Source of the DNA: Rickettsiales bacterium (ex Bugula neritina AB1)
Lineage (GTDB): Bacteria; Pseudomonadota; Alphaproteobacteria; CAJXXZ01; UBA1459
Assembly: GCA_001730065.1 (NCBI GenBank)
Contig: MDLE01000006.1
Coordinates: forward strand, 138,938-177,484
Direction: 5' to 3'
Length of the DNA stretch: 38,547 nt
Shown: positions 4,321 through 38,547 of the stretch, piece after piece
Layout of the letters: each line of letters opens with the position of its first letter
Numbering within the stretch: position 1 is the first letter of the stretch
Notes under the pieces: generated by a model
What the model was told of the DNA's origin: nothing
Seen by the model: the letters and a program-made list of their open reading frames with translations, nothing else
Database searches by the model: none
Position numbers and translations under genes: made by a program

Positions 4321-6078
4321 ATGGAATGTATAGATGAAAGTTATTTTAATAACTTAAATGAATATCAAAAAAAAGCTGTATTTACAAAAAATAAATATGT
4401 ATTAGTAATTGCTTCTGCAGGTACTGGTAAAACACGTGTATTAGTAGGAAGGTATTTATATTTACTTAAAGAAGTTAATTATAATCAAATAATAGCTTTA
4501 ACATTTACAAATAAAGCTGCAAAAGAAATGATAAATCGTATAGATATAAAAGGATCACTTTTTGTGGGTACTTTTCATAGTATTTGTCTAAGATTATTAA
4601 GAGAATATGCAAATATATCTCCTACTATTATTGATGATGATGACATGAAAAAAATTCTTGAAAAACTTGAATATAGTGAAAATTTAGTGACTTCTATTAA
4701 ACACATACAAGATAACTATATATCAATAGATGATATTAATGATAAAAATCATATATCAATTAAAGAAGCGTATATTAAATATAATAAAGAATTGGAAAAA
4801 AATAATTTAATGGATTTTAATACAATTATTTTAAAAACTATAGATATTTTAAAAAATCCTTCTATAGGTGATAAAATTCGTGAAAGATTTAAATACGTTT
4901 TAGTGGATGAATATCAAGATACAAGTACCTCTCAAGAAAATTTACTTATAGAACTTACAAAAGAAAAAACATCATTATTTGCAGTCGGAGATGATGATCA
5001 ATCTATATATCATTGGAGAGGTGCTAATATTCAAAATATCTTGACATTTCAAGATAGATATCCTAACAGTGAAATTATAGAACTACAAAATAACTATCGT
5101 TCCACCAATGAAATATTAGACTTTGCAAAGGCTGTTATAAATTCTAATGATGATAGATATAAAAAACAAATATCTGGAATTAAAAATGGTAATAAAGTAC
5201 AAATTTATTCTGTTCCTACAAATAGACAAGAACCCGCAATAATTGCTAGTCAAATTCAAGAGATTATATTAAAAGGTAATTATAGCTATAAGGATATTGG
5301 TATTTTAGCAAGATCAAATCAAACTTTAAGATTTATTGAACAAGAATTAAATATAAATAGCATTCCTTATCGTCTTTTTAGTGGTATAAAATTTTTTGAT
5401 CGCCAAGAAATTAAAACAATTATAAGTTATTTTCGTTTGATTTTAAATAATAATGATTGGTTAGCATTTGAAAAGGTTATTTCAAGTCCTCGTCGTGGTA
5501 TAGGTCTTAAAACTTTAGAAATTTTAAAAAAAAAAGAATATTTATTTGAAAATTTAGAAGGTATTTTATCAAAAAAACAACAGGAAGAAATGGAAAAATT
5601 AGAAAATTTACTATTCAAATGGAAAAAAGACCTAAAAATCATGGATTTATCAAGTTTTTTGTTTCGTGTTTTAGAAGAATCAGGTTTAAAAGATTTCTTC
5701 AAAGAAAAACATCAAATAAATAACTTAAAAGAACTTTCAGTGGTATTAAGTACTTTTAAAAATTTACAGGAATTTATAGATACTTTTTATTTTATTATAG
5801 ATGAAAAAGAAAATAATAGTAATTATGTATCTCTAATGACATTACATATGGCAAAAGGTTTAGAATTTCCAATAGTTATTTTACCTGCTTGGTCAGAGGG
5901 TTATCTTCCTCATCCTAAGTCCGTAGAAGAAGGAAATATATCTGAAGAAACAAGATTAGCTTATGTGGGTGTTACTCGTGCCAAAGATCATTTGTATATA
6001 TATTTTTACAATAATAATCCCTCAAGATTTTTACGTAAATGTGCACCATATGCAGATATATTTATGTATAATAATTAA
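4321..6078 (+). CDS. uvrD: UvrD/PcrA-type superfamily 1 DNA helicase
   Basis: 585-residue SF1A 3'-5' helicase used in nucleotide-excision and mismatch repair and in clearing replication obstacles. Motifs in order are the Q motif (LNEYQKKAV, residue 12), Walker A ASAGTGKT (31-38), motif Ia ALTFTNKAAKEM, GTFHSICLRLLREY, Walker B VLVDEYQDTSTSQ near 197, DDDQSIYHWRGA, NYRSTNEIL, TLHMAKGLEF and the C-terminal EETRLAYVGVTRAKDHLYIYF. UvrD is usually about 720 residues. Here the C-terminal tail, and probably part of the 2B domain, are reduced. UvrD, PcrA and Rep cannot be separated by eye. The stop codon directly abuts that of the convergent ftsZ. Confidence 0.93.
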   Translation: MECIDESYFNNLNEYQKKAVFTKNKYVLVIASAGTGKTRVLVGRYLYLLKEVNYNQIIALTFTNKAAKEMINRIDIKGSLFVGTFHSICLRLLREYANISPTIIDDDDMKKILEKLEYSENLVTSIKHIQDNYISIDDINDKNHISIKEAYIKYNKELEKNNLMDFNTIILKTIDILKNPSIGDKIRERFKYVLVDEYQDTSTSQENLLIELTKEKTSLFAVGDDDQSIYHWRGANIQNILTFQDRYPNSEIIELQNNYRSTNEILDFAKAVINSNDDRYKKQISGIKNGNKVQIYSVPTNRQEPAIIASQIQEIILKGNYSYKDIGILARSNQTLRFIEQELNINSIPYRLFSGIKFFDRQEIKTIISYFRLILNNNDWLAFEKVISSPRRGIGLKTLEILKKKEYLFENLEGILSKKQQEEMEKLENLLFKWKKDLKIMDLSSFLFRVLEESGLKDFFKEKHQINNLKELSVVLSTFKNLQEFIDTFYFIIDEKENNSNYVSLMTLHMAKGLEFPIVILPAWSEGYLPHPKSVEEGNISEETRLAYVGVTRAKDHLYIYFYNNNPSRFLRKCAPYADIFMYNN

Positions 6079-18033: not shown

Positions 18034-19866
18034 TTATATTTTTACGAGATTTAAAGATGTTTTTTTATTATTTAAAAATTTCAAAAATCTATCTTTTTTA
18101 TTTGTTTTTTTTGAATCTTTATTTTTTAAACTATCATTTTTTAAACTGTTTTGGGGTATTAAAATTTTTTCATATAGTAATTTTTTTATTACCATACTTT
18201 TTTCATTATTATTATAGTTATAGACAGTTGCCCATAAATTCTTAATATATGTTTCCATATCACTTATAAGTGTTGAAAGTTTTTGATTATCAATATCTTT
18301 ATCTTTTTTATGTTCTACTAATACTTGACGTTTTATATATTCCATACGGATTGTGTATAAAGTATCTAAAATAGTAATAGGCGTGTTATAGGTTACTGCA
18401 TGCACAAATAACAAAAATACAATATTTTCTACATCGCTATGGGAAAAGTTATCCGTAAATTGAATAATATAATCTAAGTAATTTTTTAAATATTCAGAAA
18501 TATATACATTTTTATATATATCCTTACGACTATATTCTCTTATATAACTTATAAAAACCATAACCCTAGTACTAATACTTGGGACTGCAAAATTAATAGA
18601 AATACATCTACGAGATATATTACCATCTACATTATCACCATTTCCATGGTTTGTAGAAAATATTATCAATCCCATACCATGCTTTCCTTTTCCTAGAAGA
18701 CTATTTTCATTATTTAATTTATCTAAGTTAGTAAAGAATGCTTTGATTATTGTAGAGTATTTATGATGTAAATATATCTCTCCTTCATCACAAACCATTA
18801 CAAATAAATTATAAGGATGATTACGTATATATTCTAATAAATTATTCAACATTTTTTCTAGAACTACTTGTGCTTCTTCTTCTTTATATTCATTTAACAT
18901 AGAACCAGAAGTATATATGATCCTTATATGTTCATATTTATGTATAAAAAACAAACTACGTATGATTCTTGGTATAAATCTACGTATAGTGTTTTTCCAA
19001 TTTTTAAATTTTTTAGAAGATTTATAAGTTGTTAATATTTTGTCTAAAATCGCTAAACCTATAGAAGTTTTTCCTGTACCTGAAACACCTTCTAAAATTA
19101 AATTAGTAACATGAATTTTATGATTTTTAGAAATAAATTCTACAAGTTGTTGAGAAAAAGCTGCTACTTCTGTGTATTTTTCCGTATCTAAATTTAAATT
19201 TTCTATAGAACGAATAGAAATACCCGATAAAAAGTTATAGGTATTTTCTTCAATATTATTTAAAAAAAAATGAATACGAAACTTTTTTATTAAGTAATTA
19301 TAGGCATCACTAATTGGGGCTTCAATTAACCCAACAATAATAGATCGTAAAATGAAATCTATAAGAATACGATTTTTAGTAGAATGCATATTATAGAAAT
19401 CTTTTTCCGATTTTTCTTTTTCCATTTTATTTTGTGCAAATGTAACAAAAATATCTAATAATTTTTTCCCATATTTTTCACGTTCTACAGTTGTTATTTG
19501 AGGGCAAAAAACTTCTATAAATTCTCGAATTATCATTTGGTGTGTACTACTTGCTAAATCCATAACATCTTGTGATATATTATCTTTTTTAAACCAGGAG
19601 CTTGGTAGTTTATCTGTGAATTTATCTATTAAAGATTTTACAGTTTTGGCATCTGGTGAATTATTATGTGCTTCCATAGCCTTTATTTGATGTCTAACAT
19701 TAGGATTATTACTTAATTCCTTTTGTTGTTTTTCTGTAAACATTTTATTTGGAATATGAGAAAAATTTTGAGAATTCACATTTAAAGTATAAAAATTCAA
19801 AAAAAGTATAAAATTAATAAACAGTAATAAATTAAATTTTTTTAATTGATAAGTCATTTTCTTCAT
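18034..19866 (-). CDS. Membrane-anchored or secreted AAA+ ATPase, unknown role
   Basis: 610 residues. A basic N-terminus and hydrophobic stretch (about 10-31) form a signal anchor or peptide. A long helical region follows (33-250), then one AAA+ module: Walker A GVSGTGKT (260-267), Walker B LFVMVCDEGE (354-363), sensor-1 FSTNHG (403-408, Asn 406), and a likely arginine finger in NISRRC (416-421). A basic Lys-rich C-terminus follows. The layout recalls ATAD3-like or other organelle-type AAA ATPases, but sequence similarity is not enough to name it. It lies just downstream of tssA-like. It could serve secretion, membrane protein quality control or host contact, and each is only inference. Confidence 0.7.
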   Translation of the reverse strand: MKKMTYQLKKFNLLLFINFILFLNFYTLNVNSQNFSHIPNKMFTEKQQKELSNNPNVRHQIKAMEAHNNSPDAKTVKSLIDKFTDKLPSSWFKKDNISQDVMDLASSTHQMIIREFIEVFCPQITTVEREKYGKKLLDIFVTFAQNKMEKEKSEKDFYNMHSTKNRILIDFILRSIIVGLIEAPISDAYNYLIKKFRIHFFLNNIEENTYNFLSGISIRSIENLNLDTEKYTEVAAFSQQLVEFISKNHKIHVTNLILEGVSGTGKTSIGLAILDKILTTYKSSKKFKNWKNTIRRFIPRIIRSLFFIHKYEHIRIIYTSGSMLNEYKEEEAQVVLEKMLNNLLEYIRNHPYNLFVMVCDEGEIYLHHKYSTIIKAFFTNLDKLNNENSLLGKGKHGMGLIIFSTNHGNGDNVDGNISRRCISINFAVPSISTRVMVFISYIREYSRKDIYKNVYISEYLKNYLDYIIQFTDNFSHSDVENIVFLLFVHAVTYNTPITILDTLYTIRMEYIKRQVLVEHKKDKDIDNQKLSTLISDMETYIKNLWATVYNYNNNEKSMVIKKLLYEKILIPQNSLKNDSLKNKDSKKTNKKDRFLKFLNNKKTSLNLVKI

Positions 19867-21270: not shown

Positions 21271-22857
21271 TTATATAATATTTTTCCAAAATTCAATAAT
21301 ATTTTTTATTTCATTATTAATTATATTTGGGATATGTATACGAGATATATTGTAATTTTTCTGTAAAATTAACAAATCATTGTATTCTAATAAGTTTTCT
21401 GCCATTGTAGATCTAATAATATATTTACTTTTTAGTTTATTAGAGCTTTTTAGGGAGCTTTTTAATATATTTTTATTTTTTAATATATTATTAATTTGTT
21501 CATTAGATGGATCTTTTATTGTAAATATTGTAAAAACACCTACTTCTTTTGAATATTTTATAATATCATAAAATATTTTTGTGACATCAATATTTATATT
21601 AATAAAATCATCAAAATTATTTATTATTAATACAATATATGGTAATGATTTGTTTTTTTTATATTCATAAAAAGATAAATTTTGTTCCTTTAAAATTTTA
21701 TGTCTTTTTTCTATTTCTTGCTTTAATTGACTTAATACATTTATTACATCTTTATAAGATTTGAAAATTTTATGAACAATATGATTAGAAAAAGAAAAAA
21801 CATCTAAATCATCTCTAAGATTAATAATAATTAATTCTACTTCTTTAGGAGTTTTTGTCATTAAAAAACCACAAATTATTACTTTTAATAAATTTGTTTT
21901 AGAGTAGTCACTCTCACCACTAATACAAAAATTTTTTATATATAATAAATCATATACAACAGAATTTCCAAATGTATCTAATCCTAAAAACACCTGTAAT
22001 TTATAAATTTTATTCTTTTTATTTTTTAAAATATCTACAAAATTAATAGTACTTTTTTTAATGTTAGGTATTTGGAGTAATAATTTTTTATCTTCTTCTT
22101 GAGGAAAAAATAAAATTTTTTTTTTCAAATATTCACTTAGATCTTCTAGGATTATTTCTAAATGATTAATAGTTAAATCATTTTTATAAGTAATATAATA
22201 GTTAATAACAATAGGTCCTTGTATTTTTTTATTAATTTTACAATCAAGAGGAAAATTTTTTAAAGATATATTATTTAAAAAATCAGGATTATTAATAATT
22301 TTGTATTTGGAATTATTTAAAATATTTAAAGAAGGAAAAATTCTATTATTTTCTAATTTGTATTTTCTTAAATAAAAATTAATTAATAGATAAATTATAA
22401 TATTAAGACTTAAAAGTATTATTTTTTTTTTTTCTTCATAAAAAATATAAAATATAAATTTCTGAAAAATATTAAATTCTATTAAAAATGATATAAAGAA
22501 TAATAAAACTCCACTTACAATAGCCATATAAATATTTTTTATAAAAAATAAAGAAATGAATATTAACCATAAAATGATTATATCTCCACCCGTATAAAAA
22601 TAATTACTATAGATTATATTCTTCTTTATTTTATAAATTACAATATAAAATATTATTGATATAAAATAAGAAATTTTATTTTTTTTTATTTTTAAAAGAT
22701 ATATTTTTAATAATATTAAAAATACAAATGACACTAATAATATATATAAAAAATAATTTTTGTTTTTAAAAACAAAATCAATTTGAATTGTTAGAGAATA
22801 TAAATATATTAATAGACAACAAAATAATATAGTGATTAATGATCTTTTATTACACAT
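21271..22857 (-). CDS. ftsK: FtsK-family DNA translocase with degenerate ATPase motifs
   Basis: 528 residues, much shorter than FtsK. Several transmembrane helices fill about residues 1-165, and a motor-like region runs 200-528, ending without the gamma domain. Family matches are GPIVINYY (usual GPVVTLYEV), TPKEVELIIINL, LPYIVLIINNFDDF, the KYIIRSTMAENLLE segment and LLEYNDLLIL (usual LLGxGDML). The Walker A is GESDYSKT (314-321), missing the Gly before Lys of GATGSGKS, and Walker B Asp-Glu is Asn-Asn (413-414). ATP hydrolysis is therefore doubtful. It may keep only a structural divisome role. It overlaps tssK by 22 bp. Confidence 0.82.
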   Translation of the reverse strand: MCNKRSLITILFCCLLIYLYSLTIQIDFVFKNKNYFLYILLVSFVFLILLKIYLLKIKKNKISYFISIIFYIVIYKIKKNIIYSNYFYTGGDIIILWLIFISLFFIKNIYMAIVSGVLLFFISFLIEFNIFQKFIFYIFYEEKKKIILLSLNIIIYLLINFYLRKYKLENNRIFPSLNILNNSKYKIINNPDFLNNISLKNFPLDCKINKKIQGPIVINYYITYKNDLTINHLEIILEDLSEYLKKKILFFPQEEDKKLLLQIPNIKKSTINFVDILKNKKNKIYKLQVFLGLDTFGNSVVYDLLYIKNFCISGESDYSKTNLLKVIICGFLMTKTPKEVELIIINLRDDLDVFSFSNHIVHKIFKSYKDVINVLSQLKQEIEKRHKILKEQNLSFYEYKKNKSLPYIVLIINNFDDFININIDVTKIFYDIIKYSKEVGVFTIFTIKDPSNEQINNILKNKNILKSSLKSSNKLKSKYIIRSTMAENLLEYNDLLILQKNYNISRIHIPNIINNEIKNIIEFWKNII

Positions 22858-24158
22858 AAACTAAGAGTTTTTGGTAGAAAAGTTGATATTGTATTAAAGA
22901 CATATAGTTCTTTTTCGTTAATAGATAGCAATTCTTTAAAGGATGACATGATTATTTCCACAATAACTATATTTTTTCCAAAATTTGTATTTTCTGTGAT
23001 TTGTTTTTGTATACCTCTACTACGACGATATATTATTTCTTTTACCTTGTCTTTTCCAATAATTTTACAGTTTTCTATCCATTTAATAATATCTTGTTGG
23101 TTATTATTTATATCCATTTCTACTAATAAAAATAAACTAGTACTATTAAAAATACTCTCATCTAATGTAATATGAAAAAATGACTGACTAAATTTATTAT
23201 TGCCGACAATATATTCATTATCATCTGATAATTGAAAAAATATACGTTCACCAAGTAATTCAAACTCCTGTAATATATTATTTATGTCATTTATTAAATT
23301 TTTTATATCTTCTAAAATATTATAATGATTATATTTTTTAATCATAGGTAAATTTGTAAGTTTTAAAATTGACAAGGATCCAAAAATTTTATGTAGTGTC
23401 ATAAAAACTTCAATAGGTAATAATACTTTTGATAGTAATTTAGATTCTAAAACTAATACATCTGGAAAAAAGCTTTGATATTTTTCTACTACTAAATCTT
23501 TTTTTGTTTTATCTCTCAAATATTGGGATGTAATATTAGCAGCACTAACACGCATATTATTAATAAAATCTACTATGTATTTATATATAACATGTTCATT
23601 ATTTATAACTACAATAGGGTATTGATAATCTTCGTCTATTACAAAAATATTATTTTTCCATAAAACCTTTCCTATTGGAATACCTATATGATTTCCCGTT
23701 AAAAGGTAATCTGGTACAATTACTAAATTTTCTACATCTTTTAGTAGATTTAAAGATTGTGTGTTGTCATATTTATCTACAATATTTTCTTCTACTGTTG
23801 TTAATTTATCCGTCAAGCATATATATAATATTATTTGGTTGTTAATATGGAATGCACTACTATGTTCTTGTAAATCAATAGATAAATCGTAATTATCATT
23901 TTGATTAGGTAACATACAATTATAATTTACATATTTTCTATTTTTTAAAATTCCTATAAATTTTTGTATTTTAAATATACCCTTACTTATAGCTAAATTA
24001 TCTATTTTTAATTCTAATACCGCTTCGTAATACTCACGAATATGAGTTGTATTTATTATTGTATCATCTACATAGTCTTGTAATTGTTGTAAGTGTTGTG
24101 GTGTTAAATAAATACCTTCACTCCAATGAATTTTTTTTCCTTTAAAAAAGTCTCCCAT
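22836..24158 (-). CDS. tssK: Type VI secretion baseplate protein TssK
   Basis: 440 residues, family length about 445. The N-terminus KIHWSEGIYLTPQHLQQLQDYVDD matches the TssK start (usual VxWxEGLFLxPQHFQQQDR). It continues through YYEAVLELKIDNLAISKGIFKIQ (family: PxGWGLxxLxID...LxxG), and the end (FNTISTFLPKTLSLCVI) corresponds to the C-terminal head. TssK links the type VI baseplate (TssF, TssG, TssE) with the membrane complex (TssJ, TssL, TssM). With the TssA-like gene it shows that a contractile injection system is encoded, the remaining genes lying elsewhere. It is located between rplT and ftsK. A GGA lies before the start. Confidence 0.88.
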   Translation of the reverse strand: MGDFFKGKKIHWSEGIYLTPQHLQQLQDYVDDTIINTTHIREYYEAVLELKIDNLAISKGIFKIQKFIGILKNRKYVNYNCMLPNQNDNYDLSIDLQEHSSAFHINNQIILYICLTDKLTTVEENIVDKYDNTQSLNLLKDVENLVIVPDYLLTGNHIGIPIGKVLWKNNIFVIDEDYQYPIVVINNEHVIYKYIVDFINNMRVSAANITSQYLRDKTKKDLVVEKYQSFFPDVLVLESKLLSKVLLPIEVFMTLHKIFGSLSILKLTNLPMIKKYNHYNILEDIKNLINDINNILQEFELLGERIFFQLSDDNEYIVGNNKFSQSFFHITLDESIFNSTSLFLLVEMDINNNQQDIIKWIENCKIIGKDKVKEIIYRRSRGIQKQITENTNFGKNIVIVEIIMSSFKELLSINEKELYVFNTISTFLPKTLSLCVIKDH

Positions 24159-36605: not shown

Positions 36606-37451
36606 ATGAAAAAATTTATAAGTATTTATGGACCTACCGCTAGTGGAAAAACAGATTTAGGAATAGAAATAGCCAATAAAACCAACGGTATTATTGTTAA
36701 TTTTGATAGTTGTCAGTTTCGTAATCATCTTCATAGTTTTACTATGTGCCCTATAGATTTAGTAGAAAATAGAGATTTTTTATTTAATTTTTTAGAACCA
36801 GAAGAAAATTTTAGTTGTGGTGATTTTTTAGAAAGATTAAAATCTATTATAGATACTTATAAAAATAGAACTATAATTTTAGTAGGAGGGACAGGTTTTT
36901 ATTTGTTTTGTGCATTACAGGGAATTAGTAAAGATAAATCTCATAATTGTTCACAAATTATTGATCCTAACAAAACATATGAGGAAAAATTTCAACTTCT
37001 TCAGTCTTTAGAGGGTAATGTCAAAATTCATAAAAATGATCATTATCGTATTGATAGACATTTAAATTTTTTCTTAAAATATGGATATAGTATAAATAAT
37101 AGAACATCTGCACCTTTAATTTTGAAAAAAGATATGATTAATATTTATCTAAAACCTAACAAAGAAACTTTAATTACTTATATTACAGAACGTTTAAAAA
37201 AAAATTTTTTTTTAATGATAAAAGAAGCAAAGATTGTAAAATATCATAAAAAATTTTCTAGAATTATAGGTTACGATGATATTATTAAATATATAAATTT
37301 TGAAATATCTTTTGAAGATGCTTTTAATAAAATAATCCAGAAAACTTTAAAGTATTCTAAACAACAAAAAACATTTTTTAATAAAAAGATACAACATGAT
37401 TATATATTTGAAGAAAAATGTGAATATATGAAATATATATTGTATAATTAA
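36606..37451 (+). CDS. miaA: tRNA dimethylallyltransferase MiaA
   Basis: 281 residues, shorter than the usual 300-320. Adds dimethylallyl to A37 of tRNAs reading UNN codons. Visible are the P-loop IYGPTASGKTDLGIEIA (7-23), FDSCQFRNHLH (family: ADSxQVYRGMDIGTAK), FLEPEENFSCGDFLERL (family: PxExYSVxDF), LVGGTGFYLFCALQGIS (family: LVGGTGLYxxALLxGL), and the tRNA-binding end (KIVKYHKKFSRIIGYDDIIKYI; KYSKQQKTFF, family: ryAKRQxTW). Strong family match despite shortening. Confidence 0.94.
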   Translation: MKKFISIYGPTASGKTDLGIEIANKTNGIIVNFDSCQFRNHLHSFTMCPIDLVENRDFLFNFLEPEENFSCGDFLERLKSIIDTYKNRTIILVGGTGFYLFCALQGISKDKSHNCSQIIDPNKTYEEKFQLLQSLEGNVKIHKNDHYRIDRHLNFFLKYGYSINNRTSAPLILKKDMINIYLKPNKETLITYITERLKKNFFLMIKEAKIVKYHKKFSRIIGYDDIIKYINFEISFEDAFNKIIQKTLKYSKQQKTFFNKKIQHDYIFEEKCEYMKYILYN

Positions 37452-37483: not shown

Positions 37484-37512
37484 TTGTTATCATAATAAAT
37501 TTGTGCTATAAT
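37484..37512 (+). promoter_or_regulatory. Strong promoter of the repeat-protein gene
   Basis: TTGTTA (37484-37489), 17-bp spacer, TATAAT (37507-37512), with TGC before the -10 so that it is also an extended -10 (37504-37512). The ATG lies 12 bases after the -10. Good evidence that the frame starting at 37524 is transcribed. Confidence 0.7.
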
Positions 37513-37523
37513 TAAGTTCAATT

Positions 37524-38547
37524 ATGAATGTTAAAAACATTTTTTTATTTAATACTATTATTTTTTTTTCTGTGAAAACAGAAGTAGAAATTTATCCAAT
37601 AGCAGTACTATCTAATGAAACAAAAAGGGAAAATCATCTAATAGAAGTACCATTCCAAGAAAGTAATTATTACTGCACCATCAATTACTTCCCATTTCCT
37701 CTACAAATAAAAGTACTATCTAATAAAACAGAAGGAAAAATTTATCTAATAGCATTACTATCTAATGAAACAAAAAGGGAAAATCATCTAATAGAAGTAC
37801 CATTCCAAGAAAGTAATTATTACTGCACCATCAATTACTTCCCATTTCCTCTACAAATAAAATTACTATCTAATAAAACAGAAGGAGAAATTTATCTAAT
37901 AGCATTACTATCTAATGAAACAAAAAGGGAAAATCATCTAATAGAAGTACCATTCCAAGAAAGTAATTATTACTGCACCATCAATTACTTCCCATCTCCT
38001 CGACAAATAGAATTACTATCTAATAAAACAGAAGGAGAAATTTATCTAATAGCATTACTATCTAATGAAACAAAAAGGGAAAATCATCTAATAGAAGTAC
38101 CATTCCAAGAAAGTAATTATTACTGCACCATCAATTACTTCCTACTTCCTCTACAAAAAATATCAGTAATATATAATAAAAAAACAGAAGTAGAAATTTA
38201 TCCAATAGCAGTACTATCTAATGAAACAAAAAGGGAAAATCATCTAATAGAAGTACCATTCCAAGAAAGTAATTATTACTGCACCATCAATTACTTCCTA
38301 CTTCCTCTACAAAAAATATCAGTAATATATAATAAAAAAACAGAAGTAGAAATTTATCCAATAGCAGTACTATCTAATGAAACAAAAAGGGAAAATCATC
38401 TAATAGAAGTACCATTCCAAGAAAGTAATTATTACTGCACCATCAATTACTTCCTACTTCCTCTACAAAAAATATCAGTAATATATAATAAAAAAACAGA
38501 AGTAGAAATTTATCCAATAGCAGTACTATCTAATGAAACAAAAAGGG
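37524..38547 (+). CDS. Tandem-repeat protein with candidate signal peptide, partial (runs off window)
   Basis: From ATG 37524 the frame stays open to the edge, 341 codons. The N-terminus (MNVKNIFLFNTIIFFSV) is a basic, then hydrophobic segment that may be a short signal peptide. After it comes a near-identical repeat of 50 codons three times, then 52 codons three times, the last unit cut. Each unit includes SNETKRENHLIEVPFQ and ESNYYCTINYF, with one Cys per unit, alternating polar/hydrophobic strands. Start copies have KTEVEIYPIAV, inner copies KTEGEIYLIAL. No family recognised. Codons in the repeats use C-ended triplets (TAC, TGC, ACC, ATC, TTC) more than other genes here. It may be a surface or secreted repetitive protein. 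Other frames contain stops in each unit. Confidence 0.8.
   Translation, partial: MNVKNIFLFNTIIFFSVKTEVEIYPIAVLSNETKRENHLIEVPFQESNYYCTINYFPFPLQIKVLSNKTEGKIYLIALLSNETKRENHLIEVPFQESNYYCTINYFPFPLQIKLLSNKTEGEIYLIALLSNETKRENHLIEVPFQESNYYCTINYFPSPRQIELLSNKTEGEIYLIALLSNETKRENHLIEVPFQESNYYCTINYFLLPLQKISVIYNKKTEVEIYPIAVLSNETKRENHLIEVPFQESNYYCTINYFLLPLQKISVIYNKKTEVEIYPIAVLSNETKRENHLIEVPFQESNYYCTINYFLLPLQKISVIYNKKTEVEIYPIAVLSNETKR
37575..38547 (+). repeat. Tandem 150-156-bp repeat array
   Basis: Unit starts marked by GAAACAAAAAGGG at 37617, 37767, 37917, 38067, 38223, 38379 and 38535: three periods of 150 bp, then three of 156 bp. The core from that marker over about 75 bp is identical in every complete copy. 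Length changes keep the reading frame. Each unit also contains an internal copy of about 45 bp (GTACTATCTAATGAAACA... and GTACTATCTAATAAAACA...), so the repeat grew from a smaller duplication. Confidence 0.95.

Follow-up and report, generated by a model that had tools for sequence, protein, structure and literature searches.

Rickettsia palindromic elements are dispersed, palindromic sequences of 100-150 bp that are read in frame within genes. Repeats of another kind, termed PARCEL, are built of tandem amphipathic 25-residue units with dyad symmetry in the DNA, lie in membrane-targeted ORFs and have possibly been moved horizontally (PMC2996958). The tandem repeat proteins (TRPs) of Ehrlichia carry near-identical in-frame tandem units; they are described as substrates of type 1 secretion whose signal is C-terminal (PMC4885862).

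Here we analyse a candidate gene (hereafter the repeat gene) at the right end of a 38,547-nucleotide stretch of a symbiont genome (C6:138938-177484; this whole stretch is called the window). Like the Ehrlichia TRPs, it consists of near-identical tandem units read in frame, belongs to a reduced, AT-rich intracellular alphaproteobacterium and probably acts on the host. Unlike them, it begins with an N-terminal leader, and no match to OEP/TolC was found in the examined part of the genome (435.5 kb, 71% complete, with C6:1-72000 read as N; all genome-wide searches reported here have this scope). Pfam and NCBIfam searches with the repeat protein returned no TRP-type family. With PARCEL it shares tandem units in a putative membrane-targeted or exported ORF, but its units are 50-52 residues long and their fold z-scores are near zero, no better than those of shuffled sequences. 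The in-frame repeats recall Rickettsia palindromic elements as well, yet they form a single tandem array, and nowhere else in the genome did we find a copy.

In the reading that we prefer, and to which we give about an even chance, the locus holds the 5' portion of a real gene that is specific to this lineage and encodes a tandem-repeat protein which the reduced symbiont exports through Sec. Lineage-specific exported repeat proteins are a known kind, to which the repeat gene would add a case without homologues in the collections searched.

Structure and coding content of the array

The ATG at 37524 opens a frame of 341 codons on the forward strand, stop-free through 38546 to the window edge, while the other five frames contain 20-36 stops each; a gene on the minus strand is ruled out by stops in all three minus frames. 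TRF places the array at period 150 with 6.4 copies and 96% matches, and alignment in register resolves it into six complete copies, the first three 150 bp and the next three 156 bp long, and a final 55 bp, 6.35 copies altogether (Table 1). The preliminary description, which spoke of an uninterrupted frame through at least six and a half repeats, is thus confirmed. It had also let the gene run off the right edge. The frame is indeed open there, but the edge is no arbitrary boundary: it is the end of the 177,484-base assembled contig C6 and falls inside a repeat. As the repeat unit was found at this one locus only, and on no other contig examined, the 3' end of the gene is irrecoverable from this assembly.

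The units, of 50 or 52 residues, are near-identical. A core of 84 nt (28 codons, encoding LSNETKRENHLIEVPFQESNYYCTINYF) has the same sequence in all six complete copies, and a 40-mer taken from it gave 6 matches against 0.00 expected from shuffles. In the strip of 22-24 codons outside the core, 11 codons are substituted between copies and there are two indels of codon size. Two versions of the copy can be told apart, A ending in PFPLQIKLLSNKTEGEIYLIAL and B ending in LLPLQKISVIYNKKTEVEIYPIAV. Both ends of the array carry B-type sequence, a pattern that duplication plus conversion would give. Recent amplification of the array is supported.

Table 1. Features of the repeat gene, its upstream neighbour and other leader-bearing repeat ORFs of the genome. 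Positions without a contig prefix are those of the window.
Feature	Position	Strand	Remarks
miaA, upstream neighbour, outside repeat gene	36606..37451	+	TIGR00174, 7.4e-37, below curated cut-off
Promoter	37484..37512	+	-35-like TTGTTA (37484-37489), 17-nt spacer, extended -10 TGcTATAAT (TG 37504, TATAAT 37507-37512)
Start codon ATG	37524..37526	+	11 nt past -10 box; predicted mRNA with little or no 5' untranslated leader
Leader, 17 codons, MNVKNIFLFNTIIFFSV	37524..37574	+	signal-peptide-like: Lys, then hydrophobic core
Array, in frame, 6.35 copies	37575..38547	+	cut by contig end; TRF and register alignment
Copy 1, 150 bp	37575..37724	+	begins type B (KTEVEIYPIAV), finishes type A
Constant 84-nt core, position in copy 1	37608..37691	+	
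Copy 2, 150 bp	37725..37874	+	type A
Copy 3, 150 bp	37875..38024	+	type A
Copy 4, 156 bp	38025..38180	+	type A first, then type B; longer by two codons
Copy 5, 156 bp	38181..38336	+	type B; identical to copy 6
Copy 6, 156 bp	38337..38492	+	type B
Copy 7, first 55 nt only	38493..38547	+	up to contig end
Repeat ORF, 240-residue tandem units	C2:214-5259	+	leader
Repeat ORF, LNQSLSLLNQS runs	C2:35152-37365		leader; runs off contig end
Repeat ORF, Lys/Glu/Gln-rich, coiled-coil-like	C7:82801-83847		leader; runs off contig end
Repeat ORF, 28-residue units	C6:102767-104395		leader
Repeat ORF, 25-residue units	C7:69288-70373		leader

How much weight does the open frame deserve? Because the copies are not independent, openness through six of them is effectively one observation of 50 codons, and when a single unit, taken as a circle of 150 or 156 bp, is shuffled with its dinucleotides kept, 2-5% of the shuffles have an open frame by chance. 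The frame that was originally put forward as evidence of a gene therefore exists, but is a weaker argument than claimed. The unit lengths of 150 and 156 and their 6-nt difference are all multiples of 3, which keeps the frame. When 171 ORFs of the genome are used to train an order-2 codon-position model, frame 0 ranks first of the six, slightly above background. A codon test on stop-free sequence was marginal, being equalled by 1-12% of open shuffles, with one stop-containing reverse frame scoring higher. Between copies, 11 of 11 substituted codons are nonsynonymous and none is synonymous, where 330 nonsynonymous and 95 synonymous single changes are possible per unit. Purifying selection is thus not apparent, and diversification is no more than slightly hinted at; the description of the protein as rapidly evolving is compatible with these substitutions but not proven by them. 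The repeats gave no Rfam match and fold no better than shuffles, and an RNA element was accordingly rejected.

These figures bear on an unlikely alternative, that the array is untranslated or neutral satellite-like DNA, one frame of which is open by chance, the promoter and a short frame in front of it being real. The chance openness of circular units would fit such DNA, as would the marginal codon content, the atypical codon usage described below and copy differences that are without exception nonsynonymous. It would leave unexplained why both unit lengths and the step between them are divisible by three, why the genome's own coding model puts frame 0 at the top, and why the array is joined in frame to a leader which, together with the promoter, matches export genes of the genome.

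Its peculiar composition speaks against the preferred reading of an exported-protein gene. Synonymous codon usage of the repeat ORF is the most atypical among 254 ORFs (score 0.144; next lowest 0.295, median 0.433), and the anomaly resides in the array: the leader scores 0.38, a native value, and the units 0.09-0.12, as low as only 0.3-0.4% of native 50-codon segments. The repeat uses CTA, TTC, TAC, TGC, ACC and AGG where the genome prefers other codons, its GC content is 27.5% against 21% in the window, and its GC skew is the reverse of that of nearly all native genes there.

Two further explanations draw on this contrast. According to the first, which we hold to be decidedly unlikely, the gene is real and its product exported, while the repeat body came from the host or a neighbouring microbe, was fused to a native leader and then amplified. 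The step in codon usage between leader and units, the shift in GC content and skew, and a unit that could be traced nowhere else in the examined genome speak for such an origin; against it, none of the genome, phage, plasmid or viral collections searched contains a donor, and a 50-codon unit is a small sample for a compositional argument. The second, very improbable in our view, is an assembly artefact, with symbiont DNA joined at a chimeric contig end to a repeat of the host or of another organism. The array does lie at a contig end and is unlike the rest of the genome in composition and codon usage. Yet the frame continues unbroken across the junction from a leader similar to others in this very genome, the units score highest in frame 0 under a model trained on its genes, and native repeat ORFs stand at other contig ends, which makes repeats rather than chimeras the usual cause of breaks.

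Promoter, start codon and leader

Scanned for generic sigma-70 promoters, the region yields no more than chance would give, 17 sites where 16.9 are expected. The context of the start codon is much more specific. The promoter scores 10/12 with TG present, and its extended -10 sits in the motif TTTGTGCTATAAT (37500-37512). Throughout the genome, 18 of 321 ORF starts have TGnTATAAT 5-14 nt upstream, against 11 of the 10,993 other ATGs, which makes it 56-fold enriched before ORF starts; for plain TATAAT upstream of ORF starts the enrichment is 9.5-fold. With at most one mismatch, the TTTGTGCTATAAT motif itself occurs at three sites within 60 nt of ORF starts, against 0.0 for shuffled-motif controls. 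The three ORFs are the repeat gene, the candidate exported-protein gene C3:18350 and the ORF C7:61600, whose N-terminus reads like that of ribosomal protein S4 (rpsD). This promoter context is the strongest evidence for transcription and for a translation start at 37524, and the promoter and start codon named in the preliminary description are upheld by it.

Leaderless genes are marked by a -10 box about 10-12 bp ahead of the start codon (PMC3160421), and the TATAAT of the repeat gene ends 11 nt upstream of its ATG. Such a strong leaderless-gene signature helps in calling gene starts in this genome. SD-like motifs are enriched in it as well, and the two modes of initiation seem to coexist. Apart from the repeat gene, we observed the promoter-plus-leader-start sequence TTTGTGCTATAAAGAAAATATGTTTATGAAAATAAAAT twice on the minus strand of C3, some 330 bp apart (18986-18998 and 19315-19327); only one of these copies precedes an ORF of at least 80 aa, suggesting a duplicated or decayed leader cassette.

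The leader is unremarkable in hydrophobicity, since 15% of non-start ATG frames are equally hydrophobic, and it contains neither an AXA-type nor any other clear cleavage site. More telling is its similarity to other leaders. Among 320 ORFs it is closest, by protein and by DNA, to the leader that C2:214-5259 carries (MKKNKYILFNYIIFTSVISEEN), a match equalled by 1 of 3000 shuffles, and its second match by DNA is C1:299-1147. Both ORFs belong to one four-gene family together with C3:27315-29771 and C7:3-1673; by a post hoc estimate, roughly one in a thousand random draws among 113 hydrophobic N-termini would fill the first two places from a family of four. The resemblance is confined to the leader, the body of the repeat protein matching neither this family nor anything else in the genome. 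Another leader match, at C1:54493, was dismissed as low-complexity and due to chance. The signal-like N-terminus reported initially thus stands by its resemblance to leaders of other candidate exported proteins and not by its hydrophobicity, which is ordinary. SecA and signal peptidase I are encoded in the genome.

Homologues, fold and genomic neighbourhood

No homologue of the repeat unit was detected in GTDB genome contigs, six peptide patterns included, and neither viral contigs nor, by tblastn, phages and plasmids gave anything credible for the repeat protein. The same holds for 60 relatives, 385 genomes of the class and 399 of the phylum; two weak matches (G061 and G634) were discarded because both run across stops. 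Neither sequence nor profile searches of the PDB yielded a significant match. Where the full array did exceed curated Pfam cut-offs, the scores were sums over repeats, falling below cut-off at two units and vanishing at one: NUP210_Ig (PF22957) reached 40.7 bits on the full array, 16.3 on two units and none on one, and Peptidase_M99_m (PF17130) 28.7 bits, 21 and none. Matches of the full array in NCBIfam and PHROGs were likewise put down to repeat inflation, the check by unit number having been made with Pfam. The database search of the unit is thus in accord with the original statement that it matches no known family, for no collection searched held a homologue.

Two AlphaFold models of the protein are both of low confidence (pLDDT 48.7 and 40). 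In the first, short strands follow one another about 11 residues apart, some four per unit; the second disagrees. Foldseek with these models found no match below E=0.6, a result that is not meaningful at that confidence. The likeness to beta-propellers and other beta-repeat proteins consists of the roughly four strands per unit of the low-confidence model and a profile match to YjiK at E=0.2, and is not significant. A beta-rich repeat fold is our guess.

Downstream of miaA, seven relatives show no conserved synteny and have other genes in this place. TRF and ORF scans of the examined stretches uncovered further leader-bearing repeat ORFs (Table 1), many of them at contig ends, so that the break after the repeat gene is ordinary for this assembly. 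Two things set the repeat gene apart from them: its codon usage, and the absence of related sequences at other places in the genome.

Several other loci came to our attention during these scans. The four leader-bearing paralogues, C1:299-1147(-), C2:214-5259(+), C3:27315-29771(-) and C7:3-1673(-), each lie at a different contig end; the two members scanned have no Pfam match, and C2:214 has no relatives outside this genome. Contig C5 starts (1-627) in a tandem copy of a C-terminal segment of Hsp70/DnaK, followed by hydrophobic segments, and terminates (4757-5614) within a dnaK gene, in its 5' portion, which points either to an Hsp70-derived repeat gene or to an assembly loop. On the minus strand of C6 (122524-124947) a row of small ORFs carries near-identical leaders (MKFCFKIIKIFFFYFFCFSQ, MKIYFNTIRFLFIFICCFTQ and similar) in front of apparently different bodies.

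The window also contains a TssK/VasE-like type VI secretion gene at 22836-24158(-), with FtsK-like and uncharacterised neighbours; the segment 17463-26960 is perhaps a reduced type VI locus of this symbiont group. Type VI systems are conserved in Holosporaceae-like protist symbionts, where they are non-standard and without known secreted molecules (PMC11909080), and the TssK-like gene agrees with this.

A putative exported repeat protein

Taken as a gene for an exported repeat protein, the locus could work as follows. RNA polymerase would read from the extended -10 close to the ATG, producing a leaderless or nearly leaderless mRNA, and the hydrophobic N-terminal leader would direct the product to SecA/SecYEG. 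Units of 50-52 residues, possibly beta-rich, would thus be presented outside the cytoplasm as a repeated domain. The array would have grown recently by tandem duplication and conversion that left the 28-residue core constant and a strip of about 22 residues variable, and recombination could shift both repeat number and the variable strip. The repeated surface would then most likely bind something at the host interface, in an adhesin-like or effector-like manner. Translation, export and fold are here inferred from sequence, and a role at the host interface is probable from the lifestyle of relatives and by analogy with Ehrlichia TRPs (PMC4885862).

It is also conceivable, if highly improbable, that the symbiont keeps several loci built alike, each with the common leaderless promoter and short export leader in front of a different repeat body that was amplified independently, the repeat gene being the youngest and its body of foreign or non-genic origin. 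If this were true, a tiny genome could make new host-facing repeat proteins.

Repeat-rich candidate exported genes stand at several contig breaks, and assemblies of this sort may systematically miss them. For a lineage in which most secreted molecules have yet to be characterised, the product of the repeat gene, if expressed and exported, would be a candidate host-interface protein.
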